Source of the DNA: Bacteroidales bacterium
Lineage (GTDB): Bacteria; Bacteroidota; Bacteroidia; Bacteroidales; Tenuifilaceae
Length of the DNA: 64,000 nt
Assembly (NCBI GenBank): GCA_003818205.1
Contig: RPRQ01000021.1
Span: forward strand, 1 to 64,000
Reading direction: 5' to 3'
The notes under the pieces are model-generated. The model was not told the DNA's origin. It searched no databases and was given only the letters and a program-made list of their open reading frames with translations. Shown here piece after piece: positions 1,637 to 50,893 of this stretch (the first letter of the stretch is position 1; each line of letters starts with the position of its first letter). Both the position numbers and the translations under genes were made by a program.

Positions 1637-1734
1637 AAAAGTTGACACCTGCCTGCCAGTAGGCAGGGTTGTTCGTTGACGGTTGACAGATCTCTATTCT
1701 TCTGACTCCCGACTTCTAACTTCTATCATTTTTC

Positions 1735-10897: not shown

Positions 10898-11023
10898 GCC
10901 TGCCTGTCCTGCCCTGCCTATTGGCAGGCAGGTGGTAGTCAGGGCAGACCAGGAACGCCCATATTTTGTTGGCTACGCCAAACTCGTACAACTTGTCCCT
11001 GCCTGCCCCGATCTCTATCGGGG
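10898..11023. repeat. GC-rich palindromic units between susD and lacZ
   Basis: 10898-10932 contains CCTGCCtattGGCAGG with extra CTGCC repeats. 11006-11023 is CCCCGATctcTATCGGGG, a member of the second palindrome family. Both families also occur inside MITEs elsewhere in the window. The rest of the 10823-11411 gap shows no gene. Confidence 0.65.
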
Positions 11024-16549: not shown

Positions 16550-17554
16550 TTAAAGCGATCCTCGTACAACCAACGACGATGGATTTTCGATTAGTATAAC
16601 CCTTTTATCAAAAACCAACTCAGCCAACGTCTTGCCCATTAGCTTAAAGTCGGTACTTATTGTGGTAATACCATTAACTACAACTTGCTTAAGAGAAGTA
16701 TCATTATAAGATATAATACCAAGATCTTGACCAAGCTGCAAACCCAACTCTTTTGCTTGATTCACCAATAAAACTAAATCACGATCCCAGATTGCAATAT
16801 AGGCCTCACCTTTGGATATCTTAACTTCGTTAAGGTTATCAATTACTTGATGGTTGATTTTATAATCCTTACAAAATTTCTGAAATCCTTTAAACTCACC
16901 CTCAGGTTCCTTTCCACCAGGATATACCATTACTATTTTCTTATACTTTTCAAGCAGATCAAGCCTTGATTTTAATGCATTATATACATCCTTCTCAAAA
17001 TTCTGGAAAACCGATGAGTAGCTATTCCCCAGCTCCGATGGTAGCTGGTCGAGGATTATGACTTTCCCGGTTAAACTTTGCAGCGTTGATTGTACCCCCT
17101 CGAATTTTGTTGGCATCAATATATAAGTGGTATAATTGCCATTGTTGTCCTTAATTAAACTATCGAAAATTTTTCTGTTAAAGTGATGAAAGTAAATGTC
17201 AACCTGTGCTTTGCCATCTAAAGCCTCAAGAAATGATGAGTACAAATCCTCCTTGAACGCATTTAACTCATCGAAAAGAACAAATATTTTATGCTTAAAC
17301 ATTGTGGTTATACTATCCACATAATATCCCTTTCCTGGGCTAGAAGTAATAATTCCTCTGGCCTTTAACTCGTTGTATGCTGAGATAACGGTGTCGCGCG
17401 AAAGACCCCAATCCGCACAAACCTGATTAATGCTAGGCATCAAATCGCCTTTACATAGTTTTCCTTCGTTAATCGAAACGATTATAGAGTCAATAATCTG
17501 CTTATACTTTGATTTTGATAGCTTATCGTCAACTTTTATTAGCTTTTTGGACAT
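16550..17554 (-). CDS. GntR-family regulator with LacI-type sugar-binding domain
   Basis: 334 residues. The N-terminal winged helix (about 10-75: KYKQIIDSIIVSINEGKLCKG, PSINQVCADWGLSRDTVISAYNELKARGII) is GntR-type. The rest (about 88-334: KIFVLFDELNAFKEDLYSSFLEAL, GIISYNDTSLKQVV, GITTISTDFKLMGKTLAEL) is a periplasmic-binding-protein-like domain as in LacI and AraR. It probably binds a sugar and controls the susC operon next to it, with the tandem palindrome at 16243-16260 as a plausible site. The start ATG is very close (5 bases) to a TAAATTTG -7 box on the minus strand (17559-17566), so its mRNA may be almost leaderless. Confidence 0.88.
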   Translation of the reverse strand: MSKKLIKVDDKLSKSKYKQIIDSIIVSINEGKLCKGDLMPSINQVCADWGLSRDTVISAYNELKARGIITSSPGKGYYVDSITTMFKHKIFVLFDELNAFKEDLYSSFLEALDGKAQVDIYFHHFNRKIFDSLIKDNNGNYTTYILMPTKFEGVQSTLQSLTGKVIILDQLPSELGNSYSSVFQNFEKDVYNALKSRLDLLEKYKKIVMVYPGGKEPEGEFKGFQKFCKDYKINHQVIDNLNEVKISKGEAYIAIWDRDLVLLVNQAKELGLQLGQDLGIISYNDTSLKQVVVNGITTISTDFKLMGKTLAELVFDKRVILIENPSSLVVRGSL

Positions 17555-17589
17555 ACAACAAATTTATATTTAATATTATTAAAAGTAAG

Positions 17590-17798
17590 GTAACTATTCA
17601 CCACGGAAAAACAGCCCGTCCCGATTTATCGGGAGAGGGCACAGAGTTTCACAGAGAAAATATTTATGTTTTTTGTGTTAGTGATTCTTTTGCATTTTGA
17701 TAATCAGTCGTTTTTTTATAATTGCCTCTCCCGATAAATCGGGACAAGTTGTGGCTCTCCGTGGTTTTTGTTCAATTCAATTACTGCTGAATAGTTAC
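17590..17798. mobile_element. MITE copy A with 8-bp target duplication
   Basis: A 209-bp non-coding element bounded by the inverted ends GTAACTATTCA (17590-17600) and TGAATAGTTAC (17788-17798). Just inside lie CCACGG on the left and CCGTGG on the right. The flanks are a perfect direct 8-bp duplication, AAAGTAAG at 17582-17589 and 17799-17806. Two TCCCGATwwATCGGGA palindromes lie inside (17619-17634 and 17729-17744). Copy B is at 27475-27741. It has no transposase and must be moved in trans. Confidence 0.9.
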
Positions 17799-18020
17799 AA
17801 AGTAAGAACTCAATAATACTTACTCCTGAATCAAGCCAAATCAATGAAATTTAATTATTGCCATCACAAATTTAATGGAAATAAATACATTATCGAATTA
17901 TTTGTAAAGTCAACAATTAGTTAAGGTATAATAGACATTATACAGATTAATTATCAGCTGTTGTATCTATACTGCTTACCCAAAGCGTTATAGCCCTCGG
18001 AAAGAGGATTGTTCTAATAA

Positions 18021-18040
18021 CTCCGCCTTTTAAGGCGGAG
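18021..18040. repeat. CTCCGCC hairpin
   Basis: CTCCGCCTTTTAAGGCGGAG is a perfect palindrome. A related hairpin at 18187-18228 has the same arms but is split by an inserted GC-rich palindrome. Confidence 0.6.
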
Positions 18041-18186
18041 ATAATGATCTAACGATTTGTGAGCTTCAGCCCTTGACTTTCTACACCAGCTGCTATATAC
18101 TTTCTAGTAATCAACGTAGAAACAATTCTACTCTTAAAACCGTACATTACGCTTTTGGCTAAAGCCGAGGATTCTTCTTTATCTTG

Positions 18187-18228
18187 ACTCCGCCTTAAAA
18201 CCTGCCGGCCGGTAGGCAGGGGCGGAGT
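18187..18228. repeat. CTCCGCC hairpin interrupted by a GC-rich palindrome
   Basis: The arms ACTCCGCC (18187-18194) and GGCGGAGT (18221-18228) are separated by a 20-bp unit, CCTGCCGGCCGGTAGGCAGG (18201-18220), of the family also found at 18388-18407, 27317-27336 and 27499-27518. The uninterrupted form is at 18021-18040. Confidence 0.65.
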
Positions 18229-18312
18229 TATTGATTTTTGGTTTAAAAAATACCGTAACTATCATATTATGAGATTTTAACGAAGCACAAAACTGCTTAA
18301 TCTATATAATGT

Positions 18313-18582
18313 ATCACTACTGACCGACTAAAATACTATACAATTCATGAAATACTTGATATTACTACATTCTATGTATAGGTCGCCCCTGCCTACCGGC
18401 AGGCAGGCCTAATGGGGCTTGAATTTGATTTTTCTCTAATTACTACAAATAGGTCATCGCTATGCGACTATAGAAAAGCAGCATTGCTGCGAACTATTTG
18501 TAGAATAGACGATTACATTTTAGATAGAAGCAGCATCGCTGCGACCTATTGATTTTAGATTTTTTTCTCGGTTAATAATAAT
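18313..18582. repeat. Dispersed repeat family R, copy 1
   Basis: A segment from ATCACTACTGACCGACTAAA to CTCGGTTAATAATAATT. It is closely matched, in inverted orientation, by 50643-50893. It contains hairpins made of AGCAGCATTGCTGCGA and AGCAGCATCGCTGCGA. Relative to copy 2 it carries an extra 20-bp palindrome (18388-18407, CCTGCCTACCGGCAGGCAGG) inside the CCCC..GGGG hairpin. It is non-coding and lies directly upstream of rbfA. Confidence 0.8.
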
Positions 18583-18662
18583 TGAAAAAGATTCTGTGTG
18601 ATTTTTAAAGGGCAGGATAACATATCAGAGGATCGAGTTCTGTTATTATCTTTTAAATCAAC

Positions 18663-18670
18663 TATCTTTG
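18663..18670 (+). promoter_or_regulatory. -7 box of the rbfA operon
   Basis: TATCTTTG matches TAnnTTTG exactly and lies 15 bases before the rbfA ATG. An AAGGA ribosome-binding-like sequence (18680-18684) stands between them, which favours the ATG at 18686 over the upstream in-frame TTG at 18668. The -33 TTG is not clear. Confidence 0.55.
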
Positions 18671-18685
18671 CACAAAATCAAGGAT

Positions 18686-19024
18686 ATGGAAGGCACAAGG
18701 TTAAACAAGGTATCGAGGTTGCTTCAGAAGGATTTAGGGGATATATTTCAGAAGGAAGGCACTTCTTTATTTAGGGGAAAGATAATTACGGTTACATCAG
18801 TTAGGGTTAGCCCCGATCTCGGCGTAGCCAAGGTCTATATCAGCATATTCCCCACCGATAAGAAGGAGGAGATGCTTCAAACCGTTAGGGTTCATACCAA
18901 GCAATTCCGTCATGAATTGGCCCAAAGGGTTAGGCATCAGCTAAGAATAGTTCCTGAGCTATCCTTCTTTCTTGATGACTCGCTCGATTATATCGAAAAC
19001 ATTGATAAACTTCTGAAGAGTTAG
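18686..19024 (+). CDS. rbfA: Ribosome-binding factor A
   Basis: 112 residues with a KH-like fold. It binds the immature 30S subunit and aids 16S rRNA 5'-end maturation. Diagnostic segments are RLNKVSRLLQKDLGDIFQKE at the N-terminus, VRVSPDLGVAKVYISIFP in the middle, and LRIVPELSFFLDDSLDYIENIDKLL at the C-terminus. The start at 18686 fits the family (MEGTRLNKV) and has AAGGA just upstream. It heads an operon with a methyltransferase (3-bp gap) and a LolC/E-type permease. I know the rbfA/permease neighbourhood from other Bacteroidota. Confidence 0.95.
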   Translation: MEGTRLNKVSRLLQKDLGDIFQKEGTSLFRGKIITVTSVRVSPDLGVAKVYISIFPTDKKEEMLQTVRVHTKQFRHELAQRVRHQLRIVPELSFFLDDSLDYIENIDKLLKS

Positions 19025-19027
19025 TTA

Positions 19028-19798
19028 ATGCTCAAACATATTATATCTCTTGCTTCACGGTTTATACCCCGCCACTATCAGCAGATGGTGGTTGCTTTTC
19101 TTTTACGTTCGATTGCAATATTCTATATAGGCAATAGAATTGAAGACCCCATCTCGGGAAAAAAGTACCGAAAAATACTACCCTACGGAAGACTCCAATC
19201 ACGCCCAAATGCGTTGGCATTCCACTCCCTTTCGCTCGAAAGGCATCGGCTGATATGGCTATACCTGAAGAATCGAACCGATTTTTTCACAAGCCCGAAG
19301 CGAGTGCTGCATATTGCCCCTGAATACTGCTTCATAAAACCATTCAAAAAATTAGCGAACCTCGATTATATAACTGCGGATCTGATTTCTCCTTGGGCTG
19401 ATGTTAAGCTGGATGTTCAGAGTATTCCTTTCCCCGATTCAAATTTCGATATTATTATCTGTAACCATGTGCTTGAACATGTTGATGACGATAGACAAGC
19501 CATGAGCGAAATGTTTAGAATTATGAAGCCAGGAGGATTCGGAATTTTTCAGATCCCTCTCGATTATTCCCTTGAAGTTACACTAGAGGATAGCAATATC
19601 AATACCCCTGAACTTAGGGAAAAACATTACAAGCAGCGCGATCACCTTAGGCTATATGGTAGGGATTATGCTAAACGACTCCGTGAAGCTGGATTTGATG
19701 TAACTGAGGATAATTACGTTCATACATTCTCTGAGGATTTAATAAAACGATACGCCTTACCTAAGGATGAGATTCTGTATATTTGTAGGAAAGTATAA
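19028..19798 (+). CDS. Class I SAM-dependent methyltransferase
   Basis: 256 residues. The central part is a Methyltransf_11-type Rossmann fold: LHIAPEYCF is in place of the usual glycine-rich motif I, then DVQSIPFPDSNFDIIICNHVLEHVDDD (motifs II-III) and RIMKPGGFGIFQIP. The first 90 residues are basic with hydrophobic stretches and may contact membrane or substrate. The poorly conserved motif I (APEYC, not GxGxG) is known in some members. The substrate is unknown. It lies between rbfA and the permease in one operon. Confidence 0.8.
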   Translation: MLKHIISLASRFIPRHYQQMVVAFLLRSIAIFYIGNRIEDPISGKKYRKILPYGRLQSRPNALAFHSLSLERHRLIWLYLKNRTDFFTSPKRVLHIAPEYCFIKPFKKLANLDYITADLISPWADVKLDVQSIPFPDSNFDIIICNHVLEHVDDDRQAMSEMFRIMKPGGFGIFQIPLDYSLEVTLEDSNINTPELREKHYKQRDHLRLYGRDYAKRLREAGFDVTEDNYVHTFSEDLIKRYALPKDEILYICRKV

Positions 19799-19832
19799 TA
19801 ATTAACCCTTGAAGGGTTAAAAAAATCAACTA

Positions 19833-21068
19833 ATGAATTTCCCCCTATTCATAGCCAAGCGATACCTTTTTGCCAAGAAATCGCATAATGTAATTAACAT
19901 TATCTCCATTATTTCGCTATTTGGAGTTACAATGGGGGTTGCTGCCTTAGTTGTTGTTCTCTCTGTTTTTAACGGTTTCGATTCACTTATCAAAAAAATG
20001 TACTCAACATTTGATGCCGAAATCAAGATTAGCTTGGTTGAGGGTAAAACGTTCAGTCCAAACCTTCCTGAGATCGAAAAATTAAAAACGATGGAGGGGG
20101 TTGCCATTTTTGTTGAGGTTTTAGAGGAAAATGCCATTTTCCGATGTGGCGACAAGCAGTATCCCGGAATGATAAAAGGGGTAAGCAAGAACTATGCAAC
20201 TCTCACAGGGGTTGATTCGATGATGATAGATGGAACATTCGACCTATGGAAAGCAAATCAACCACATGCCATAATGGGGCAAGGTGTAGCGTACTACCTT
20301 AACGCTAGAATTTCCCAATTCGATCCACTAATCATCTACGTCCCCAAAAGGGGAAAATACACATCATTATCACCCGAAAACTTATTTACTACAAAGGGTA
20401 TAATGCTTGCTGGCGTTTTTGCCATTGAAGTGGAGTTCGACTCAAAATATGTTATTATTCCAATTGAGTTTGCACGAGATCTTTTGAATTATACAAATGA
20501 AGTCACCTCCATTGAACTCAAATCAAAGGTAGGTGTGAAAATAGAAACCCTTCAAGAAAAAGTAAAAGAAACTCTTGGGAGCAATTATAAAGTATTAAAT
20601 AGATTTCAACAGAACGAGGTGTTGTTCCGCACCATGAAATCGGAAAAACTTGCCATCGGGTTCATTCTTTCACTAATTCTTGTAATTGCATCATTCAATA
20701 TTATTGGCTCTCTTTCAATGCTTATCATCGATAAGCGTAGCGATGTGGAAACCATTCGCAGTATGGGGGCTGATAATGAGTTGATTCAAAAAATTTTTAT
20801 GGCAGAAGGTATGCTTATCACGATGGGTGGAACTCTAATTGGAACGGTTTTCGGTCTAATAATTTGCTGGGCTCAGACCACATTCGGGTTAATTAAAATT
20901 CAGGGATCAGGAAGTTTTATTATTGATACCTACCCCGTTGATATTCAACTTTTAGATATTAGCTTGGTGCTAATTATTGTAATTGTCATCGGGTTCCTAG
21001 CGGCCAGGTTTCCTGTAAGGATAATCACCAAACGGATACTAAACGATTCCGAAAGGGGGAATATGTAA
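19833..21068 (+). CDS. FtsX/LolC-LolE family ABC transporter permease
   Basis: 411 residues. The N-terminus MNFPLFIAKRYLFAKKSHNV with a membrane segment (about 22-50) is typical of LolC/E. A periplasmic MacB_PCD-like domain follows, then three C-terminal membrane helices (about 272-300, 325-350 and 378-398) forming the FtsX core. Such permeases extract lipoproteins from the inner membrane for transfer to the outer membrane, working with the ATPase LolD, which is not in this window. It follows the methyltransferase by 34 bp and is probably co-transcribed with rbfA. Confidence 0.88.
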   Translation: MNFPLFIAKRYLFAKKSHNVINIISIISLFGVTMGVAALVVVLSVFNGFDSLIKKMYSTFDAEIKISLVEGKTFSPNLPEIEKLKTMEGVAIFVEVLEENAIFRCGDKQYPGMIKGVSKNYATLTGVDSMMIDGTFDLWKANQPHAIMGQGVAYYLNARISQFDPLIIYVPKRGKYTSLSPENLFTTKGIMLAGVFAIEVEFDSKYVIIPIEFARDLLNYTNEVTSIELKSKVGVKIETLQEKVKETLGSNYKVLNRFQQNEVLFRTMKSEKLAIGFILSLILVIASFNIIGSLSMLIIDKRSDVETIRSMGADNELIQKIFMAEGMLITMGGTLIGTVFGLIICWAQTTFGLIKIQGSGSFIIDTYPVDIQLLDISLVLIIVIVIGFLAARFPVRIITKRILNDSERGNM

Positions 21069-21087
21069 CTTCAATAATTTTTAATTC

Positions 21088-22224
21088 ATGATAAACATTC
21101 TTATCATCGGGATTTTTGAAGGCATTTTCTTAGCCATGCTAATCCTTACCAAGAAGAAAAAATCAGTTTCGGATTTTATACTAGCCGTATTTTTTCTTGC
21201 ATTTGCTATCAATATCTTTTTAAGCTACATAGAGGCATACAACCGTCAGAATGGCTTCCCATACCCTTGGTTCATATTTACTGCAGCACCATTCCTTCTT
21301 TTGCATGGCCCTATCCTTTGGCTATATATAAAATCGTTAACCGACCAGTATTTCAGGTTTAAAGCTATCTACCTGCTAAATTTAATACCATTTGCAGGAA
21401 TGATTCTTCAGCATTCCATTGAAATATACTCAATACCGGTAAATGAGAGAATTGCTTACGTGCTTTCAGAAACCTTTAAGCAATCCTTTACATACCCTGT
21501 ATTCCTTCTCCTTATCGCCTTCTCGCAGATAGTGTATTTTTACTTTGGGCTTAAACTGATAGTTAAATATAAAGGGGAGATCGAGGGGTACTTCTCTCAA
21601 ACCATTGGCATTGACCTAAAATGGCTAAACCTTGGTTTGAAATCTTGGATTTTGTTATCCGTTTTCGTCAATTCATTCTTTATTATCGACCTTTTTGTTC
21701 CTATTGCAACCTTTGGTTTGCTGCAATTCTTGAGCTTTATTATTGCATCGGTTTACTTAGTTTTTATTGGGTTTTACGGTATCAAGCAGGAGAATCTGTT
21801 CCTTACAAAAACAATAGACGTTAACCTCGAAAAAACATTAATGCATCACCCAGAAGGGTCTCCCATTAAGCCCTTGCGTGAAGATGAGAAAGCGTTTATT
21901 CAAACGCTTCTAGATTATATGAGACTTCAAAAGCCATACCTGCAACCCGAAATTACCCTCAGCATGCTTAGCAAGGAGCTTAAAGTATCATCAGAATACC
22001 TTTCAGATATTATCAATACCGACTTAAACAAGAATTTTTTTGATTTTATTAACTATTATAGGGTTGAAGAGTTCAAAAAACAGTGCAAAGATTTACAAAA
22101 TAAGAATCTAAACATAATTGGTATAGCATATAATTGCGGCTTTAACTCTAAAGCAACTTTCAATCGAGTATTTAAGAAGGTCTCAGGGCATACTCCCAGT
22201 GAATATATCGAGAGGTCTCAATAA
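21088..22224 (+). CDS. Membrane-anchored AraC-family transcriptional regulator
   Basis: 378 residues. The first about 240 are strongly hydrophobic with seven or so membrane helices. A linker leads to a C-terminal AraC-type double helix-turn-helix (about 275-375: ITLSMLSKELKVSSEYLSDII and IIGIAYNCGFNSKATFNRVFK), ending in SGHTPSEY. This architecture is common in Bacteroidota, where the membrane part probably senses an envelope signal. Its target is unknown. It starts 19 bp after the permease and ends on a strong terminator that overlaps its last codons. Confidence 0.9.
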   Translation: MINILIIGIFEGIFLAMLILTKKKKSVSDFILAVFFLAFAINIFLSYIEAYNRQNGFPYPWFIFTAAPFLLLHGPILWLYIKSLTDQYFRFKAIYLLNLIPFAGMILQHSIEIYSIPVNERIAYVLSETFKQSFTYPVFLLLIAFSQIVYFYFGLKLIVKYKGEIEGYFSQTIGIDLKWLNLGLKSWILLSVFVNSFFIIDLFVPIATFGLLQFLSFIIASVYLVFIGFYGIKQENLFLTKTIDVNLEKTLMHHPEGSPIKPLREDEKAFIQTLLDYMRLQKPYLQPEITLSMLSKELKVSSEYLSDIINTDLNKNFFDFINYYRVEEFKKQCKDLQNKNLNIIGIAYNCGFNSKATFNRVFKKVSGHTPSEYIERSQ

Positions 22225-22243
22225 ATTGAGACCTCTTTTTTTT
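22211..22243 (+). terminator. Rho-independent terminator overlapping the AraC gene end
   Basis: A 12-bp stem AGAGGTCTCAAT/ATTGAGACCTCT followed by eight T residues. The left arm lies inside the final codons and the stop codon is in the stem. It closes the rbfA-to-AraC unit. Confidence 0.9.
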
Positions 22244-22340
22244 GCAATTCTCATTTTGTTGATACTTCAAAAACGGAAAGTAAGACTTCTAAATTGGGGT
22301 TTTCATCTTCATTTGTATCAAATATTAATTCTGACACAAA

Positions 22341-23021
22341 ATGAAAAAAGGGCTTCTTTTCATACCCACCCTAATGCTTGCAGGTTGCAGTATCAGCAAA
22401 GATACACTTCATCCATACTACAGAGCGCAGATAGGGTTTAACAAAGGCGGTATTACCGAAAATACCGATTTCACTAAAACCTCCAACGTCCAACCCGATG
22501 CGTTTACTGGAGCAACTAAAATAGGGTTCAATGCTAGTGGTCATGTGGTTTTGCCTATCAAACGAAATGCTATAGAAACGGGTATTGACTATATGTACAA
22601 TAACCAGACCTTTACCTTTAATGATTATAGCAATGGGTACAGCGGAAATCGAAGGATTAGTAGTTCACAGATTATGCTCCCTGTTACCTATAACTTTAGT
22701 TTTTTTCATAAAAACAATCCTCTTGGCTCAATTCAGTTTAAGGTTGGTTACCTTATACAGTTCAATATGTTCTCGGTTTTAGACAGCGGAACTGCTCTAA
22801 CCGATTATAGCCTCAATAACTTCTCAAGCGGGATTACCGCAGGGTTATCAGCAACACCATTTCATATGAATAATGGCAGCAAACTAGGGTTCTATTTTGA
22901 TGTGTACCGGGGCACAAAAATTTACAACGATTTTTATAACCAAAGTATATATGAAATGCCCGCCTCCAGTTTTATGAAGTTTGGTATTATCTATCAGTTC
23001 GGTAAAAATCAATCGAAATAG
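22341..23021 (+). CDS. Unrecognised lipoprotein, possible outer-membrane beta-barrel
   Basis: 226 residues. A lipoprotein signal (MKKGLLFIPTLMLAGC, Cys16) is clear. The rest alternates polar and aromatic residues, with repeated strand-like segments (KIGFNASGHVVLPIKRNAIETG, QIMLPVTYNFSFF, SIQFKVGYLIQFNMF), and ends with FGIIYQFGKNQSK, suggesting a small beta-barrel or beta-sandwich. I do not recognise a family. It is followed after 1 bp by a flavodoxin gene and then an overlapping third gene, so the three form one transcript. Confidence 0.7.
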   Translation: MKKGLLFIPTLMLAGCSISKDTLHPYYRAQIGFNKGGITENTDFTKTSNVQPDAFTGATKIGFNASGHVVLPIKRNAIETGIDYMYNNQTFTFNDYSNGYSGNRRISSSQIMLPVTYNFSFFHKNNPLGSIQFKVGYLIQFNMFSVLDSGTALTDYSLNNFSSGITAGLSATPFHMNNGSKLGFYFDVYRGTKIYNDFYNQSIYEMPASSFMKFGIIYQFGKNQSK

Positions 23022-23022
23022 A

Positions 23023-23586
23023 ATGAGAGCCGTAACGCTATTCCTATTAATAGCATTGAATTCATGCCAATCAAATTCACAGAGTATTCAAACGCAAAAA
23101 AATATAAAAATGAAAACACTTATTGTCTTCGCATCAAGCCATGGAACTACCGAAAAGGTAGCAAATATCATCAAAGAAAAACTCGATAGCACAACTGTGC
23201 AAACCTATAACTTAAAATATAAGCCCAAGATTGACTTATCGGACTACGAGACCATTATCATTGGTAGTTCAATTCACGCTGGGAGTATTCAAAGCGATAT
23301 TAAAAAATTTATTAAGGATAATACCATTTCCCTGATGCAGAAAAGGGTTTCCCTTTACCTCTGCTGCATGGACGAAAAGAAAGAGCAAGAGGAGTTTAAC
23401 AATAACTACCCTGAACTCCTTAGAAATCATTCCGTTTACAATGCAATAGTTGGGGGGGAATTTCTATTCGAAAAGATGAATTTTTTCGAACGGTTTTTGG
23501 TGCGTAAAATTTCAGGAGTATCGTCAACAGTATCGAAGCTAAGGATTGAGGAAATTGACAATCTTGTAAACACATTAAAAAAATGA
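23023..23586 (+). CDS. Flavodoxin_5 / HemG-like protein with possible lipoprotein signal
   Basis: 187 residues from the ATG at 23023. Residues 30-187 are a flavodoxin domain: the FMN phosphate loop TLIVFASSHGTTEKVA is followed by IIIGSSIHAGSIQSDIKKFI, the signature of the HemG (menaquinone-dependent protoporphyrinogen dehydrogenase) group. The first 29 residues look like a lipoprotein leader (MRAVTLFLLIALNSC, Cys15). A second in-frame ATG at 23110 would give a plain cytoplasmic flavodoxin. Flavodoxins normally act in the cytoplasm, so the choice of start decides the location. It is translationally coupled to the next gene (ATGA overlap). Confidence 0.75.
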   Translation: MRAVTLFLLIALNSCQSNSQSIQTQKNIKMKTLIVFASSHGTTEKVANIIKEKLDSTTVQTYNLKYKPKIDLSDYETIIIGSSIHAGSIQSDIKKFIKDNTISLMQKRVSLYLCCMDEKKEQEEFNNNYPELLRNHSVYNAIVGGEFLFEKMNFFERFLVRKISGVSSTVSKLRIEEIDNLVNTLKK

Positions 23587-24758
23587 AAAAGAATCCGGCG
23601 TTCGAGGTTGTCTTATTTCTAACATTCTACTCATGTACCATCCTTAAAGACGTTTCGTTAAATCCTGAAAGGTTCTTAATTAATGATGATTTGAGAACTG
23701 ATATTTATGCTAGCGCATCTAAAGGGGTTATTATATCTCCCTTTTCGATGGACATTGAGAATCCTGAGAAACTAATGCTCTTCGATTTCAAGGGGCATAT
23801 TAAGTACAAGTTTCTAGAATGCCAGTTTTACAACGACTCTGTTTTTGGAAAGGGCATTGTTTGCATGCTAATGCGTCACGATGATAGATTGGAGATATAT
23901 CATACCAAAGGGTTGAACATGAAACAGCAGCTGTACTACTTCGACTCGGTTCAACATACAATTCCAACTCAACTATTCAATCCAACCTGCTCATTCGAAA
24001 ACCAAAATGGTAATCTTAAGTTCAACCTATCATTTACCGATAAATATGGAAATAATATTGTTGCAAATCTTTCAGGAAATTACCCCGAAAGTTTAGACTT
24101 TATAGCGCCAATAGGCTTAATAAACCTACATCATTCTGATTACACCTTTTTCCCGTTATGGTACATGCGAAAAATGAACTTCTTGAACACTCATGAGGGC
24201 AATGCGTCCATCGCAATAAACGATACAATACTGACTATTAAGAAAATACCAGGGCTTATCAACTGGCAACGATTGTACTTTGCTCGATGGTCGTTTGACC
24301 CGATCTTCATAATTTGGAATACAAATAAAAGCGTGCCAACTGAAGGGATTAAAAAGGAGAGTAATGAGAACGATTCGATTACCTATATAATTAATCAAAA
24401 CCATGGGTATGTAGAAATTAAAAGTATTCTGTTTAAGGGCGTTAAGCATAACAGTACTATACAATTCTCTCCTGCTCTACCTGAATTTTTTTGTCTTAAA
24501 GATAGTATTCTACTCAATGGGCGATTTACTATCGATGTTGATGAAAAAAAAGGTGTTATTGGTGGAAAATATAGTATAACTAAAAAGGGCAAATCGGTTG
24601 AAATCTTAGTTCAGCCCACCAAAGGTTGGCAACCTGTACCAGGAAGAACATGGGTTAAAAATCACATCTTAACTATTAACCTCACCGAAACAAAAAGTAA
24701 CAAGGTGATAATAGCATCAAAATGGCGATTGAAATTAAATACGCATAGGGTTTTGTAG
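23583..24758 (+). CDS. Unrecognised exported protein
   Basis: 391 residues. The leader MKKNPAFEVVLFLTFYSC ends in a possible lipobox (Cys18). No known family is recognised. The body is rich in predicted beta strands (LMLFDFKGHIKYKFLECQFY, GRFTIDVDEKKGVIGGKYSI) and could be a lipocalin-like or carotenoid-hydratase-like sandwich; that is speculation. It overlaps the flavodoxin stop by 4 bases and is co-transcribed. Its 3' end overlaps the convergent glycosyltransferase gene by 24 bp. Confidence 0.65.
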   Translation: MKKNPAFEVVLFLTFYSCTILKDVSLNPERFLINDDLRTDIYASASKGVIISPFSMDIENPEKLMLFDFKGHIKYKFLECQFYNDSVFGKGIVCMLMRHDDRLEIYHTKGLNMKQQLYYFDSVQHTIPTQLFNPTCSFENQNGNLKFNLSFTDKYGNNIVANLSGNYPESLDFIAPIGLINLHHSDYTFFPLWYMRKMNFLNTHEGNASIAINDTILTIKKIPGLINWQRLYFARWSFDPIFIIWNTNKSVPTEGIKKESNENDSITYIINQNHGYVEIKSILFKGVKHNSTIQFSPALPEFFCLKDSILLNGRFTIDVDEKKGVIGGKYSITKKGKSVEILVQPTKGWQPVPGRTWVKNHILTINLTETKSNKVIIASKWRLKLNTHRVL

Positions 24759-25799
24759 GAGATTCGAAGAGTCATGTGAGCCTAGTTCAACCTTTGCTTC
24801 TGAAATATCAATGTTTTCTAATTTGTTTTGCTGACAAACTTTAAATAACCCTTCGTTAGATAAATGTTTTGCAAGGTACTCCTGCTCCGTTTGTCCAGGT
24901 GTAGGAACTATCAAGCATTTTACACCCAACGCAACTAAGTCCATTATGGAGCTATACCCTGCTCTACAAATCAGATACTTTGATGACTTCAATACCGATG
25001 CAAAAGTTGAATCGTTTAAATGACCTGCATACCAAATCCCATTTTTCTCAATAATATCTGTCCCCTCATCAGGTTTTCCTGTCATAATAAGGGTTTTAGT
25101 CTTTTGCCTTCGAACTAGTTTTTCAACCTGTTCAATAAACAATTCTCTTTGAGGTGATGGACCCGAAACAACTCCAACCAAATCCCAATTTATGCTAGTT
25201 GGATTGATTTCAATGCCTAAAAATCTTGATAATATTCCAATATACTCAGCATTTGAAGGGATTTTGCTAGGATGTGATAATTCCCCAGCAAGATTATCTG
25301 AGCCTAAGAAATCGGGTATCCAGCAGCTATCAAATTTCTCCGCAAAAAAACGAACAGCCCATTGTCCGGCAAGCTCAAAACTCCGAAAAGGAGTTGGAAA
25401 GAGAACCTTTAGCTGATGGGTAATTAATACTGTTTTCGCATTCTTGCACCACAACCCATAACGATTATCGGAAATAACCAAATCGATTTGATAATCTTTA
25501 ACCAACCGATTTAGCGCAAAATGCTCTTTTAAAATATGATATGGCAATTGTATGGCAATCCAAATAAGAGGGAATAATTGGCTCTTTCTCTTCGAAAACC
25601 TAACCTTAAATGATGGAAAATGAATAGTTTTTATTCCCACGAAACGTTTTGATAGAAGGGCTAATGATTGCTCATCGCCTGCAACTATAACCTCGTGTCC
25701 ATCCCTCAGAAAAGATTCAATAATTGGTATATCTCGACTTGCGTGGCCCAATCCCCAACCAAGGGGACAAACCAGAATTGTTTTCTTTTCACCATTCAT
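24735..25799 (-). CDS. GT-B fold glycosyltransferase (MurG/GT28-like)
   Basis: 354 residues. The N-terminus ILVCPLGWGLGHASRDIPII has the glycine-rich loop and GHASR motif of MurG-like and related UDP-sugar transferases. The C-terminal half holds LICRAGYSSIMDLVALGVKCLIVPTPGQTEQEYLA, the nucleotide-sugar binding segment of the GT28 C-terminal domain. Donor and acceptor are unknown. It follows the radical SAM gene by 3 bp on the minus strand and converges with the gene at 23583-24758. Confidence 0.82.
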   Translation of the reverse strand: MNGEKKTILVCPLGWGLGHASRDIPIIESFLRDGHEVIVAGDEQSLALLSKRFVGIKTIHFPSFKVRFSKRKSQLFPLIWIAIQLPYHILKEHFALNRLVKDYQIDLVISDNRYGLWCKNAKTVLITHQLKVLFPTPFRSFELAGQWAVRFFAEKFDSCWIPDFLGSDNLAGELSHPSKIPSNAEYIGILSRFLGIEINPTSINWDLVGVVSGPSPQRELFIEQVEKLVRRQKTKTLIMTGKPDEGTDIIEKNGIWYAGHLNDSTFASVLKSSKYLICRAGYSSIMDLVALGVKCLIVPTPGQTEQEYLAKHLSNEGLFKVCQQNKLENIDISEAKVELGSHDSSNLLQNPMRI

Positions 25800-25802
25800 T
25801 AT

Positions 25803-26576
25803 CTATGCCGATACTTGAATAGGTATTCCAAGCGCCTCAACCTTTGTTGCAATTCCCTTTAAATCTTTAAGTGATACTTTCTCCAAACCAATAACAGGTG
25901 TATCGCGGGCAATGGTATAAATCATTACCTCCTTAGGATCAATGGCTTTAACTAGTTCAAGCCAAGCGTTAACCTCAATATCCGTTGTATTATCAATGGT
26001 TTTCCCTTCGAAACTTCCGCGTAAAAACATGGTTTGAATGATCAGATTTCCTTCGAAAGATTTTAAACCCTTAACCAACTCTTCTGCCGAGAATTTAACC
26101 CTTGGTTGATTAAGTAAATTTATAGTTGAATCAAACGCAGAGTCTAACTTTAAGATATTCTGGTCAACCTTTTTAAGCGCAGCCACAACCTTGGGCTTAT
26201 TCAGCATGGTTGCGTTTGATAGCACCGCTATTCTCGCCTTTGGAAAATACCTATTCCGTAGCTCAATCGAATCGTCAATTATCTCTGAAAACTCGGGATG
26301 TAGGGTTGGTTCACCGTTACCAGCATAGGTAATTACATCCAACTCCTCCCCTTTCGCTTTCATATCCATCAACTTCTCATCAAGGTACTTTCTTACCTCT
26401 TCCCTGATGGGAAGTTTACCTTTTTGCTGCTTATTAGTCCATCCGCACTCACAGTAAATACAATCAAACGAGCATACCTTTGAATTTACAGGTAAAAGGT
26501 TTATCCCCAGCGATGCTCCGAGCCTGCGGCTTCGGATTGGTCCGAAAACAATACTATCGAAAAGAAATGTTGCCAT
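25803..26576 (-). CDS. Radical SAM protein
   Basis: 257 residues. The [4Fe-4S] cluster motif is Cys35-x3-Cys39-x2-Cys42 (CSFDCIYC), with an extra Cys44. GNGEPTLHPEF is the SAM-binding second motif. The N-terminal FGPIRSRRLGASLGINLLP segment places it in the group related to wyosine-base TYW1-like radical SAM proteins (COG0731). The substrate is unknown. It is the first gene of a two-gene minus-strand unit with the glycosyltransferase. Confidence 0.88.
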   Translation of the reverse strand: MATFLFDSIVFGPIRSRRLGASLGINLLPVNSKVCSFDCIYCECGWTNKQQKGKLPIREEVRKYLDEKLMDMKAKGEELDVITYAGNGEPTLHPEFSEIIDDSIELRNRYFPKARIAVLSNATMLNKPKVVAALKKVDQNILKLDSAFDSTINLLNQPRVKFSAEELVKGLKSFEGNLIIQTMFLRGSFEGKTIDNTTDIEVNAWLELVKAIDPKEVMIYTIARDTPVIGLEKVSLKDLKGIATKVEALGIPIQVSA

Positions 26577-26743
26577 ACTTTAACATCAAGAAACCATTTG
26601 AAATAGCTAATAATTAGACAAAGTTATTAAAATTTAAGACCTAGCGTTCATGTTTGAATATCAGTATTTTGTATGACAATAGTCATGACGATTGATTTTT
26701 ACAAAAGCTATTTTTAATTGATCTATTATTAAAACATTTCGAT

Positions 26744-27124
26744 ATGGTAACAACTAACTCAAACCCTAATGGGAGTAAAGCAGACACCAATATACCATTG
26801 GATGATAAAGGCCACCGAAAACTCATTGAAATCCATTCTCATATTAAAAACCTCCTAAACTCAGGGGGTAATAAAAACGACTTAACCGAAATTTTCTTCG
26901 CTTTATCATACTTCTATGAGAATTACCTCATTAAAGAGGAGATTCTTTTAAAGAGAATGGGATACCCAAATCTAGAATGCCATTCGGAATCACATAAAAC
27001 GTTTATTAGAAAAATTGAAAAACTTAAGGATAGCATAAATAAGGATGCTATGCGTGTACTAAAAGAGTTAGATATTTTTATTCTCGATTGGGTAAAAGAT
27101 CATGAAGCGACCTATAATGCTTAA
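26744..27124 (+). CDS. Hemerythrin-like protein with altered iron ligands
   Basis: 126 residues, about the size of single-domain bacteriohemerythrins. The helical bundle pattern is visible: GHRKLIEIHSHIKNL, KEEILLKRMGYPNLECHSESHKTF and WVKDHEATYN. Compared with the seven usual di-iron ligands, His24, Glu65, His80, His84 and His120 are in place. The HFxxEE histidine is Tyr61, and the Asp five residues after the last histidine is Asn125. It may bind a single metal or a modified di-iron site, or have lost oxygen binding. It is monocistronic and divergent from the radical SAM gene. Confidence 0.75.
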   Translation: MVTTNSNPNGSKADTNIPLDDKGHRKLIEIHSHIKNLLNSGGNKNDLTEIFFALSYFYENYLIKEEILLKRMGYPNLECHSESHKTFIRKIEKLKDSINKDAMRVLKELDIFILDWVKDHEATYNA

Positions 27125-27194
27125 ATAACGTGAGTTCGATTTAAGAAATAGTGGTAATACTCTAAATTGTAATTTGTTACAAATTTTTCATTTG

Positions 27195-27336
27195 GAATTG
27201 GAATAATGGAATAGTGGAATAATGGGGTTTCTTCTAACTTTTTTCTTCCCTGTCTGCCGACTTTGCTCCGCTGAAGCTATGCGAAAGCGATGCAGGCAGG
27301 CAATATTCCATTTTTCCCTGCCTACCGGCAGGCAGG
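27195..27336. repeat. Intergenic repeat with TGGAATAATGG-type ends and GC palindrome
   Basis: A segment with GGAATAATGGAATAGTGG at the left and CAATATTCCATTTTTCCC at the right. A related arrangement lies at 45696-45815. A CCTGCCTACCGGCAGGCAGG palindrome (27317-27336) is attached. The rest of the 27125-27474 gap shows no gene. Confidence 0.55.
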
Positions 27337-27474
27337 CATTATTGGCTACGCCGAACTCGCAAGCTCGGTTCCATTTCTCCCCTCAAAGTAAAATACTGAT
27401 AACATAGCACTTAAATTGTTTTTTACATCGAACTGACGTTAAATATTGAAATATTTGATAGGGAAAGGCTATAC

Positions 27475-27741
27475 GTAACTATTCACCACGGAGAAACGCC
27501 TGCCTGCCGGTAGGCAGGGAGGGCACAGAGTTTCACAACTTGTCCCGATTTATCGGGAGAGAAAATATTTATGTTTTTCGTGTTAGTGATTCTTTTGCAT
27601 TTTGATACTCAGTCGTCCTTTTATAATTGCCTCTCCCGATAAATCGGGACAAGTTGTGGTTCTCCTTGCTCTCTCCCGATACATCGGGACAGGCTGCGTC
27701 TCCGTGGTTTTTGTTCAATTCGATTACTGCTGAATAGTTAC
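27475..27741. mobile_element. MITE copy B with 8-bp target duplication
   Basis: The 267-bp relative of the element at 17590-17798, with identical inverted ends GTAACTATTCA (27475-27485) and TGAATAGTTAC (27731-27741). The flanking direct duplication is GGCTATAC at 27467-27474 and 27742-27749. It is longer than copy A because of extra palindromic units: 27499-27518 (CCTGCCTGCCGGTAGGCAGG), 27543-27558 and 27674-27689 (TCCCGAT types), besides the shared one at 27634-27649. It ends only 5 bp after the duplication from the amidohydrolase stop. Confidence 0.9.
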
Positions 27742-27754
27742 GGCTATACTCGAA

Positions 27755-28933
27755 TTAAGCTAACCGGCGTACCCTACTCATTTTAGTTGGTTTCATCAGG
27801 CTAAAATCAAAGTTGGTAATGAGGTTCAGGCCTGGCGATTTGCCCTTTTCGAGGGACCCATATATCGATTCAACCCCTAACGCTTCTGCACCATTCAGCG
27901 TTGCCCATTTAATTGCATCATCAAAGGTTAATGCTGAAAATTTTTCAAGAATAATGAGTATTTGATCGAATACCGAAAGTGTATTGGAACTGGCAAGGCT
28001 ATCGGTGCCCACCGCGATACAAGCACCCTCGTTCATAAGCATGGGTATATCGGGTAAGCATCCCTCGATAAAAAGATTTGAGGTTGGGCATAAAACGAAG
28101 TAGGGTTTATCAAAATGCTTAATTATACCCCTTACCTCATCCCTTTTAACAAAGGTATTATGAATAAAAAGGGTTGGGCTTGCATGGGGTAAATACTTTT
28201 TTACAACCTCAAAGGGGGTTATTCCTAAGGCAATGCCATCCGAAATGCCCAGAGCCTTAAAGCTCTCAGCTAGTAATCCTGTTCTATTCATTAAAAAGGA
28301 GTACTCCTGCAAGCTCTCACCATAATGGATGCTAACAATCGAATCGGATTTGTGCAACTCATCGCTGATGAAACCCCATAATCTATCGGATATGGAATAG
28401 GGTGAATGGGGTGCTAACGAACTGGTTGACTGTAATGGTAGTGTTTCGTTTAGTAAAAGCTTCGCATTTACAAACCGGGCTTCAGCATCGTCCTCCAGCA
28501 GCCCAAAAAGCTCAATAAAATTGTGAAAATGGAGGTTTGATGCTTGCTTGAACGAAAAGCTGTCGGCTGTATTGCAAATATCGCCAACAGCAACCGTTCC
28601 ATTCAACTCAAGGGTTGAAATTGCCTGCGTTATTGAACTACGAATCAAACCCTCGCTATCACCCCTAAGATTTCTGATCTGTGAAACAAAGCCTGCAATA
28701 CCATCCGATTTCTCCAATCGACCCTTTAGGTGCGATAGCTCTAGATGGCAATGCGCATTTACAAATCCTGGAACGATAACGCCATTGTAAAACTCCATCG
28801 ATTCGTACTCCTTCTCGTTGCCCTTCGGATCGACAATTTCAACAATTTTTCTGCTGTTGTCAATAACAACTATGCCATTCCTTATGGGAACGCCATTTAT
28901 AGGATAAATATAATTGGCGGAGTAGCGATGCAT
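27755..28933 (-). CDS. Amidohydrolase (deaminase-like)
   Basis: 392 residues of the amidohydrolase superfamily. The metal-binding HxH is in FVNAHCHLELSHLKG. Later ligands are the histidine of IVSIHYGES, the histidine of LFIHNTF and the aspartate of VGTDSLASS. This pattern resembles cytosine/guanine deaminases and aminodeoxyfutalosine deaminases of the futalosine menaquinone pathway. The exact substrate cannot be chosen from sequence alone, and no other menaquinone gene is nearby. It overlaps the stop of the DUF4296 gene by one base (TAATG) and so is co-translated with it. MITE copy B lies just past its 3' end. Confidence 0.82.
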   Translation of the reverse strand: MHRYSANYIYPINGVPIRNGIVVIDNSRKIVEIVDPKGNEKEYESMEFYNGVIVPGFVNAHCHLELSHLKGRLEKSDGIAGFVSQIRNLRGDSEGLIRSSITQAISTLELNGTVAVGDICNTADSFSFKQASNLHFHNFIELFGLLEDDAEARFVNAKLLLNETLPLQSTSSLAPHSPYSISDRLWGFISDELHKSDSIVSIHYGESLQEYSFLMNRTGLLAESFKALGISDGIALGITPFEVVKKYLPHASPTLFIHNTFVKRDEVRGIIKHFDKPYFVLCPTSNLFIEGCLPDIPMLMNEGACIAVGTDSLASSNTLSVFDQILIILEKFSALTFDDAIKWATLNGAEALGVESIYGSLEKGKSPGLNLITNFDFSLMKPTKMSRVRRLA

Positions 28934-39903: not shown

Positions 39904-40003
39904 TTTTGTTAGGACGAGGCTACAGCCTCGTCCTTTTTATTCCTGCAGGCTAAGCCTGCTTGGATATACTCGACTAAGGCAATGTAGCCTTAGCCGAACA
40001 GGG
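39904..40003. repeat. Three-hairpin repeat, copy 1
   Basis: About 100 bp containing three hairpins in a row: GACGAGGCTACAGCCTCGTC, GCAGGCTAAGCCTGC and CTAAGGCAATGTAGCCTTAG. Similar copies are at 42399-42497 and 43384-43482, all in the same orientation. The sequence after copy 1 to 40320 contains further GAGG/CCTC and CCTGCC-type hairpins (for example near 40220-40245) and no gene. Confidence 0.8.
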
Positions 40004-40320
40004 GGCTATAACAGATTGTGGTAACTTGGTTTTGCTTTCCTAGAAATCATAAACATTGAACTATTTACAATCTGTTAGCCCTCCTTTTTAAGGAGGGTTG
40101 GGAGGTTGTAGAGAGTATTCCCTTTGTTTTAAATAATACAGACGAGGTAAAACCTCGTCCGCACTTGGTATGCATTTACTTGTACCCTAGGCAATGCCTA
40201 GAAAAAAGGTTGGACGGCGGTGCCTACCTGCCCGTAGGCAGGCAACCGCCGCCTAACCCAATGGTTTTTGTATTTAATTTACAGCCTCAACTCAACGCGG
40301 GCAAAAAAACATTGTGCTAT

Positions 40321-42330: not shown

Positions 42331-42497
42331 CTTTGTTAGGGCGAGGCTACGGTTCATTGCCGTCAAGTTAAGATATCAAACATCAGATATACAGCAACTT
42401 TGTTAGGACGAGGCTACAGCCTCGTCCTTTTTATTCATACGGGCTAAACCTGCTTGGATATACTCGACTAAGGCAATGAGCCTTAGTCGAACTGGGG
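42331..42497. repeat. Three-hairpin repeat, copy 2 with a preceding fragment
   Basis: 42399-42497 is the full copy (GACGAGGCTACAGCCTCGTC through CTAAGGCAATGAGCCTTAG). 42331-42360 is a fragment with the same beginning, TTTGTTAGGGCGAGGCTAC. The remainder of the 42139-42658 gap holds short inverted repeats and no gene. Confidence 0.75.
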
Positions 42498-43383: not shown

Positions 43384-43482
43384 TTTTGTTGGGGCGAGGC
43401 TACAGCCTCGTCCTTTTCATTCATACAGGCTAAGCTTGCTTGGATATACTCGACTAAGGCAATGAGCCTTAGTCGAACTGGG
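43384..43482. repeat. Three-hairpin repeat, copy 3
   Basis: Same layout as copies 1 and 2 and in the same orientation. Copies 2 and 3 bracket the HEPN/MNT operon as direct repeats. It is followed by a short GGCAGGCAGG stretch. Confidence 0.8.
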
Positions 43483-50642: not shown

Positions 50643-50893
50643 AAATCATTATTAACCGAGAAAATATCAAAATTCAAAAGGTCGCAGCGATGCTGCTTAT
50701 GGTTAAAATATAATCATCTATTCTACAAATAGTTCGCAGCAATGCTGCTTTTTAAAGTCGCGGAGCGATGACCTATTTGTAGTAACTATTATAAAAATGA
50801 AAATCTAGCCCCGTTAGGGGTGACCTATACCTTGAATGTAGTAATATCAAGTATTTCATGAATAATAAAATATTTTAGTCGGTCAGTAGTGAT
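50643..50893. repeat. Dispersed repeat family R, copy 2 (inverted)
   Basis: The reverse complement of this segment aligns with 18313-18582 from ATCACTACTGACCGACTAAA to CTCGGTTAATAATGATT. Where copy 1 carries a 20-bp GC-rich palindrome, this copy has the simple hairpin CCCCTAACGGGG. It fills most of the gap between the AsmA-like gene and the next small gene. Confidence 0.8.

Follow-up and report, generated by a model that had tools for sequence, protein, structure and literature searches.

Two short palindromic units with paired empty and occupied sites in a Bacteroidales genome, probably mobile without a resident RAYT

Introduction

The way in which REP-like palindromes spread remains poorly understood, one reason being the rarity of clean empty sites. 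In the classical arrangement, REPs are moved by a resident TnpA-REP (RAYT) enzyme whose gene they flank, and the dinucleotides at which RAYT cleaves are weak ones that vary with the tag, among them CT, CA, and CC (PMC8266576). Another group, the CGTC-tagged REPs, is defined by an unpaired CGTC tag, a stem starting with complementary A/T, and a CCA tail; it is known from five phyla and has no flanking RAYT there (Di Nocera et al. 2013, PMC3733652). Mobile palindromes also occur among the GC clusters of yeast mitochondria, for which the enzyme is unknown and an RNA route has been proposed (PMC4478555).

Here, we analyzed two palindromic units in a stretch of 64,000 nucleotides (the window), which is contig 48 of the 5.17-Mb draft genome of a Bacteroidales bacterium. 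A preliminary description had proposed that the palindromes are themselves mobile, that they prefer existing hairpins, and that a RAYT drives them. This genome offers dozens of empty/occupied pairs, boundaries defined to the base, a target rule, and an internal control in the 8-bp duplications of a MITE.

Results

Structure and copy number of the units

Unit 1 is 20 bp long (CCTGCCTGCCGGTAGGCAGG) and consists of an 8-bp stem, including one G-T wobble, and a CCGG loop; its two strands are non-equivalent because of the wobble. Unit 2 consists of a 5-nt tag, RCYYG, followed by the 16-bp palindrome TCCCGATnnATCGGGA. The preliminary description had given a size of 16 to 20 bp, which needs correction for unit 2, as it measures 21 bp and not 16. 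Either unit can be parsed into a short tag and a 16-bp palindrome, and a hybrid copy at locus L060 carries an ACTTG tag on a CCTGCC stem. A broader tag hypothesis, with CYTG ahead of other palindromes, was too weak to retain (9 observed against 4.4 expected).

Thirteen matches to the CCTGCC-type pattern CCTGCCNNNNGGCAGG (at most one mismatch) were found in the window against 0.02 expected, and five to the TCCCGAT-type pattern TCCCGATNNATCGGGA against 0.00 expected, far above chance. The genome-wide count that the preliminary description had called for yielded 244 CCTGCC-type and 92 TCCCGAT-type copies, and a reversed-pattern control gave none. Composition tests used a 464-kb sample (the window plus 400 kb) and targeted loci. 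No unit lay inside any convincing gene in that sample of this genome and the targeted loci. Unit 1 was nested in the centre of another unit 1 at L032, L037, and many other places. An Rfam search of window positions 17400-28000 returned zero matches. The window also holds three copies of a 98-bp repeat with a dispersed palindrome, AGGACGAGGCTACAGCCTCGTCCT (39905-40002, 42399-42496, and 43385-43482). Four copies of unit 1 in the window were the following.

27317-27336, minus strand: unit 1 copy, intergenic
1648-1667, plus strand: unit 1 with altered centre (CCTGCCTGCCAGTAGGCAGG)
10913-10932, minus strand: unit 1 with altered centre
40223-40242, plus strand: degenerate copy of unit 1

Empty and filled slots in a MITE

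Two copies of a MITE in the window, A and B, host units at defined slots.

17590-17798, plus strand: MITE copy A, with TIR GTAACTATTCA and the 8-bp target duplication AAAGTAAG at 17582-17589 and 17799-17806; hosts two units
17614-17634, plus strand: unit 2 (GCCCG+TCCCGATTTATCGGGA) in slot 1 of copy A; slot otherwise empty in 11 MITE copies and holding unit 1 in 11
17729-17749, minus strand: unit 2 in slot 3 of copy A; slot empty in 5 MITE copies
27475-27741, plus strand: MITE copy B, with the 8-bp target duplication GGCTATAC at 27467-27474 and 27742-27749; hosts four units
27499-27518, plus strand: slot 1 of copy B filled by unit 1 (CCTGCCTGCCGGTAGGCAGG), at the target ACG^GAG
27538-27558, plus strand: slot 2 of copy B filled by unit 2 (ACTTG+TCCCGATTTATCGGGA), at the target CACA^GAG
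27634-27654, minus strand: slot 3 of copy B filled by unit 2; the CACA^GAG target is likewise on the minus strand
27674-27694, minus strand: slot 4 of copy B filled by unit 2; 7 MITE copies empty there

The MITE begins with GTAA and makes 8-bp duplications like IS66-family elements, to which it may be related. We read 34 copies in this genome, and each of the four slots was seen both empty and filled. The empty form is ..CACCACGGAGAAACG^GAGGGCACAGAGTTTCACA^GAGAAAATA..ATTGCCTC^TGTGGTTCTCCGTGCTC^TC(C/T)GTGTCTC.., and all slots are empty in copies L091 and L095. Slot 1 was empty in 11 copies, held unit 1 in 11, and held unit 2 in nine. Slot 2 was empty in 25 and filled by exactly the 21-mer ACTTGTCCCGATTTATCGGGA in seven; slot 3 was empty in five and carried the reverse complement of this 21-mer in 23, one of them diverged. 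For slot 4, seven copies were empty, with TCCG or TCTG (L031, L035, L036, L091, L095, L107, and L111), eight held unit 2, and seven held unit 1, at two offsets.

Transposition of the MITE carries units along, so the slot counts are not independent events; the distinct combinations of slot, unit, and offset nevertheless require at least eight separate insertions. The single slot for which different palindromes had been described does hold unit 2 in copy A and unit 1 in copy B. Copy B had also been said to have extra units relative to A, and these are present at CACA (27538-27558) and at 27674-27694, although copy A has a deletion at its last slot, which is not a clean empty site.

Units inside other hairpin repeats

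Two further hosts lie in the window.

18388-18407, minus strand: unit 1 within the CCCC..GGGG hairpin of repeat R, an occupied site
50809-50820, plus strand: empty site of repeat R (CCCCGTTAGGGG)
18021-18040, plus strand: intact host hairpin CTCCGCCTTTTAAGGCGGAG, which flanks a Y1 (RAYT-type) gene in the same-family genome G011 (locus L347)
18201-18220, plus strand: unit 1 variant (CCTGCCGGCCGGTAGGCAGG) in a CTCCGCC hairpin (18188-18200 and 18221-18227), split at A^G

Occupied copies of repeat R (18388-18407 and elsewhere) differ from the empty form, found at 50809-50820 and at L057:11084, by exactly 20 bp, as expected if, in the words of the preliminary description, unit 1 had been inserted there. 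The same holds for its claim that unit 1 splits the CTCCGCC hairpin, which is split at 18201-18220 and intact at 18021-18040. All of the palindromes were indeed present at the positions that it had named in MITE copies A and B, repeat R, and the CTCCGCC hairpin. The exact empty form ACTCCGCCTTAAAAGGCGGAGT adjoins the Y1 gene at L347, so unit 1 had entered an apparently genuine RAYT-linked REP.

A second Bacteroidales genome contains a hairpin repeat, CACTGAGCCTGTCGAAGTG (CACTGAGCCTG^TCGAAGTG), of which 11 copies are empty; another carries the exact 20-mer, flanked by CCTG and TCGAAG, and a further one a 21-bp variant at a different position.

Other hosts were noted in passing. At L244, unit 1 splits a hairpin (ATAGGACGGCCCCAGAG^GCCGTCCGATTTT) of the kind that flanks a Y1 gene at L259, an insertion into the REP of another RAYT. 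Another Bacteroidales genome, G438 (L315, L319, L322, and L325-L334), carries the 16-bp TCCCGATnnATCGGGA form in the loops of (C)TCCGCCTTCG..CTACGGCGGAC hairpins, a host hairpin different from that in the window. An 8-bp satellite-like repeat, GGAATGAT/GGAATATT, found at many intergenic places of the window's genome (L060:11308, L067:10386, L012, L042, and similar), is a frequent host of unit 1 (ATG^GAAT).

Target, orientation, and preference for hairpins

Both units insert with exact ends, and the target is neither lost nor duplicated. No target-site duplication was seen at any of the empty/occupied pairs in the MITE slots, repeat R, and the second Bacteroidales genome; since the MITE displays its own 8-bp duplications, duplications made by the units would have been detectable. 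The target of unit 1 is R^K and that of unit 2 is A^G, mostly CACA^GAG. In 37 distinct contexts within the window's genome, unit 1 was found at G^G 31 times, at A^G five times, and at G^C once. Neither unit changes its orientation with respect to the target: for unit 2, CACA is always on the 5' side and GAG on the 3' side (slots 2, 3, and 4), on either strand.

The rule extends to other phyla: at 94 of 120 cross-phylum sites of the exact 20-mer the junction was R^K (binomial p about 1e-31 against an assumed 27% chance), and the flanks at these 120 sites are unrelated apart from that junction. For these sites we rejoined the flanks, folded 40 bases as DNA, and used R^K positions of the same locus as controls. 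Twenty percent of the sites ranked among the strongest 5% of same-locus R^K positions for hairpin strength. Hairpins are thus preferred about fourfold (20% of sites against 5% expected). This bears out only in part the preference suggested in the preliminary description: most of the 120 sites are not in strong hairpins, and the majority of insertions are at ordinary R^K dinucleotides.

Single-strand transposition might be expected to show a lagging-strand bias. In a small sample, unit strand compared with GC skew was divided 15 against 10 (p = 0.42). Tag-target guide matching of the IS608 kind fits unit 2 (CTTG, CA) and not unit 1, and was not adopted.

Distribution across genomes and phyla

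The 20-mer of unit 1 was present in 175 copies in the window's genome, against 0, 0, 0, and 1 in four genomes of the same genus (draft genomes, one sampled per species); its amplification is recent and species-specific within the genus. Across the phylum Bacteroidota, 23 of 395 genomes carry it. At least 117 stretches with the exact 20-mer were found among the bacterial and archaeal genomes scanned, in about ten phyla among the matches listed: Bacteroidota, Nitrospirota, Chloroflexota, many Patescibacteria, Omnitrophota, Stahlbacteria, WOR-3, Spirochaetes, Deltaproteobacteria, Ignavibacteriae, and others. These assignments were taken from record titles and include some draft MAGs that may be contaminated, alongside isolate genomes; the isolates carrying the 20-mer came from different laboratories. 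Only eight of 2.9 million viral contigs contained it, indicating that phages are not its main home.

Unit 1 in genes of other bacteria

In other bacteria, unit 1 is read as (S/G/R/C)LPAGRQ in relatives of Obg, phosphoglycerate kinase (PGK), MnmA, and aspartate-semialdehyde dehydrogenase (ASADH), at loci L203 (~5144), L239 (~7467), L243 (~1626), and L183 (~3853). It apparently also occurs in RluD-like (L181) and Elp3-like (L195) genes. The frames of the Obg, MnmA, PGK, and ASADH relatives run through the unit, whereas a lone 20-bp insertion would shift the frame. In Obg, unit 1 replaces a loop of equal length, so insertion into coding DNA would have to come with compensation. Insertion into functional tRNA genes was considered and rejected: the candidates, L193 and L223, look like partial tRNA copies, and the complete tRNAs nearby are intact.

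Units and Y1 transposase genes

The window's genome has 10 PF01797 (Y1_Tnp) hits. We tested 106 Y1 loci, drawn from this genome, from its relatives, and from genomes that carry units, and took in as much as 1.5 kb of sequence to either side (315 kb). A unit pair flanked the Y1 gene at 0 of the 106 loci. Six lone near-matches to the units, 63-989 bp from a Y1 gene, were found in the 315 kb, about background density. At least two copies of a different hairpin, the locus's own, were present at 22 of the 106 loci, and the test was therefore able to see a RAYT-REP pair.

Over 40 unit-bearing genomes, the numbers of units and of Y1 genes were uncorrelated (Spearman 0.10, p = 0.53). Y1 genes were found in 33 of the 40; the other seven lacked a detectable Y1_Tnp, and four such genomes, mostly draft MAGs, hold 23, 25, 26, and 37 units. 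The densities are high in two of them, with 37 units in 0.5 Mb (G452) and 26 in 0.7 Mb (G467). Conversely, same-genus genomes with two to six Y1 genes have zero or one unit. DNA between neighbouring units contained no autonomous element, its ORFs being ordinary housekeeping genes. The proposal that a RAYT drives the units is not supported by these results: flanking units are absent from the 106 loci, numbers do not correlate, and four genomes without detectable Y1 are rich in units. A RAYT acting in trans, or lost after a burst, might still account for them.

One unit in genome G007 lies near a tandem Y1 pair (890 bp from one ORF, L355, and 220 bp from the second, L363); it was discounted since it sits in a different repeat, and the pair has its own GCGCGGATT-type hairpins. 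Many Y1 (RAYT-type) genes likewise have their own, varied pairs of flanking hairpins (L050, L048, L264, L266, L271, L259, L347, and others), at which the classical GTAG tag is not evident. Partial Y1 hits at the starts of two contigs of the window's genome, C106 (L053) and C38 (L054), share a CCACCGGC hairpin and could be fragments of a single repeated RAYT gene that was split in assembly.

Discussion

Within one genome, empty and occupied sites form exact pairs; the amplification is specific to one species; and the identical 20-mer recurs in different phyla, where its flanks are unrelated. These results strongly bear out the claim that the palindromes are themselves mobile. Empty sites exist in this genome and positions are not conserved within the genus, in place of conserved terminator positions without empty sites. 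We think it probable, with some reserve, that both units are non-autonomous, hairpin-forming mobile elements moved as a folded single strand by a trans-acting enzyme. The unit would fold as a single-stranded hairpin; the enzyme would cut this at its foot and join it into a single-stranded target, with a preference for targets that themselves fold. Such an enzyme might be of Y1 type, acting in trans on many hairpins (some hosts may have lost it since), or of another kind not yet known; it would not be a resident RAYT with these palindromes at its flanks. Three features agree with the single-strand chemistry of HUH/Y1 enzymes: duplication is absent, the target is a weak dinucleotide, and the strands are asymmetric. 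Against this reading, most sites lie outside strong hairpins, the small sample compared with GC skew showed no strand bias, four unit-rich genomes (though mostly draft MAGs) have no detectable Y1_Tnp gene, and precise excision, rather than insertion, could explain some of the empty slots.

Movement by a Y1/HUH enzyme that does not carry the hairpins, as proposed for CGTC-tagged REPs and with their occurrence without flanking RAYT as precedent, is a serious possibility that we would stop short of calling probable: the insertion outcome fits, being strand-specific and free of duplication at a weak dinucleotide, and 33 of the 40 unit-bearing genomes have Y1 genes, but seven have none detectable and the numbers are uncorrelated. 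A hairpin-inserting enzyme or RNA-mediated route unrelated to Y1 transposases can be advanced tentatively. The unit density of the tiny genomes without detectable Y1 (G452 and G467) speaks for it, as do the yeast mitochondrial GC clusters with their proposed RNA route, while no candidate gene emerged, only ordinary housekeeping ORFs being present from one unit to the next. The classical alternative, in which a resident RAYT, its gene flanked by the units, moves them as REPs, appears unlikely in spite of their REP-like size and copy number, the 10 PF01797 hits, the weak dinucleotides at which RAYT cleaves, and the CTCCGCC host hairpin that flanks a Y1 gene in a relative. Against it stand the 106 Y1 loci, none with a unit pair and 22 with another hairpin, the unrelated counts over 40 genomes, the genomes with up to 37 units and no detectable Y1, the Y1 carriers of the same genus with zero or one unit, and the absence of a GTAG tag.

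Two explanations would dispense with movement altogether. Gene conversion or slippage might swap or drop palindromes among MITE copies without true insertion, and the transport of units by transposing MITEs, which makes slot counts non-independent, would agree with this. We regard it as very improbable because the same units occur at slots whose flanks are unrelated, within repeat R and CTCCGCC hairpins, and also in other phyla and in coding genes, with R^K alone shared, and because flanking direct repeats for precise slippage are missing. Intergenic DNA often has hairpins, but an artefact, chance, or conserved terminators hardly deserve credence given the window expectation of at most 0.02 and the zero hits of the reversed pattern. 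In the 464-kb sample of this genome and the targeted loci, the units also avoid convincing genes, which contamination or sequencing artefacts would not respect; units occur in isolates from different laboratories and are not conserved in position within the genus.

This genome shows that a flanking transposase is not needed for palindromes of this kind to move. The presence of one and the same 20-mer in different phyla, among them Patescibacteria with very small genomes, suggests that a minimal element has spread horizontally. It is conceivable, though we would not bet on it, that a 20-bp hairpin, among the smallest mobile elements described, crosses phyla through a non-Y1 enzyme or route, entering R^K without duplication, even in housekeeping genes of tiny-genome bacteria. 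The small set of unit-bearing genomes allows a gene-content search for the missing enzyme.

Comparison with known systems

Neither the unit sequences nor the peptide LPAGRQ was found in the literature searched. Rickettsia palindromic elements (RPEs) were described from rickettsiae. Unit 1 resembles them as a palindrome located within reading frames, where it apparently adds a short peptide (LPAGRQ in the Obg, MnmA, PGK, and ASADH relatives of other bacteria), but it is 20 bp long, crosses phyla, and is intergenic in the window's genome (comparison based in part on PMC3733652). Yeast mitochondrial GC clusters and double-hairpin elements are likewise mobile GC-rich palindromes that merge together and whose enzyme is unknown; they differ in being organellar, in their AG target duplication, and in their unrelated sequence (PMC4478555). 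MITEs are also non-autonomous and dispersed, whereas the units have no terminal inverted repeats beyond the hairpin, make no target duplication, and are about ten times shorter; the MITE described here, with its 8-bp duplication, is a host of units.

Insertion without target duplication beside a short fixed target recalls transposition of the IS200/IS605 type. With GTAG REPs and REPINs, which have a RAYT, the units share palindromes in the range of 20-40 bp, high copy number, mostly extragenic location, strand asymmetry (here the G-T wobble), and presumed single-strand movement. An unpaired GTAG was not found at the foot of the hairpins, where the flanks are R^..^K without a tetranucleotide and CCTG or RCYYG precedes the 16-bp stem, and, unlike GTAG REPs, no unit flanked a Y1 gene in 106 loci.

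The units are nearest in kind to the orphan CGTC-tagged REPs, though without a CGTC or GTAG tag: CGTC is absent from unit 1, and in unit 2 the TC belongs to the stem and ACTTG-tagged copies lack CGTC. The units differ in their tag, CYTG or RCYYG, and in having empty sites and a target, R^K, that has been measured. Common to both are short palindromes in several phyla with no dedicated transposase, sometimes inside other palindromes or genes, and the formation of dimers and nested copies (PMC3733652).
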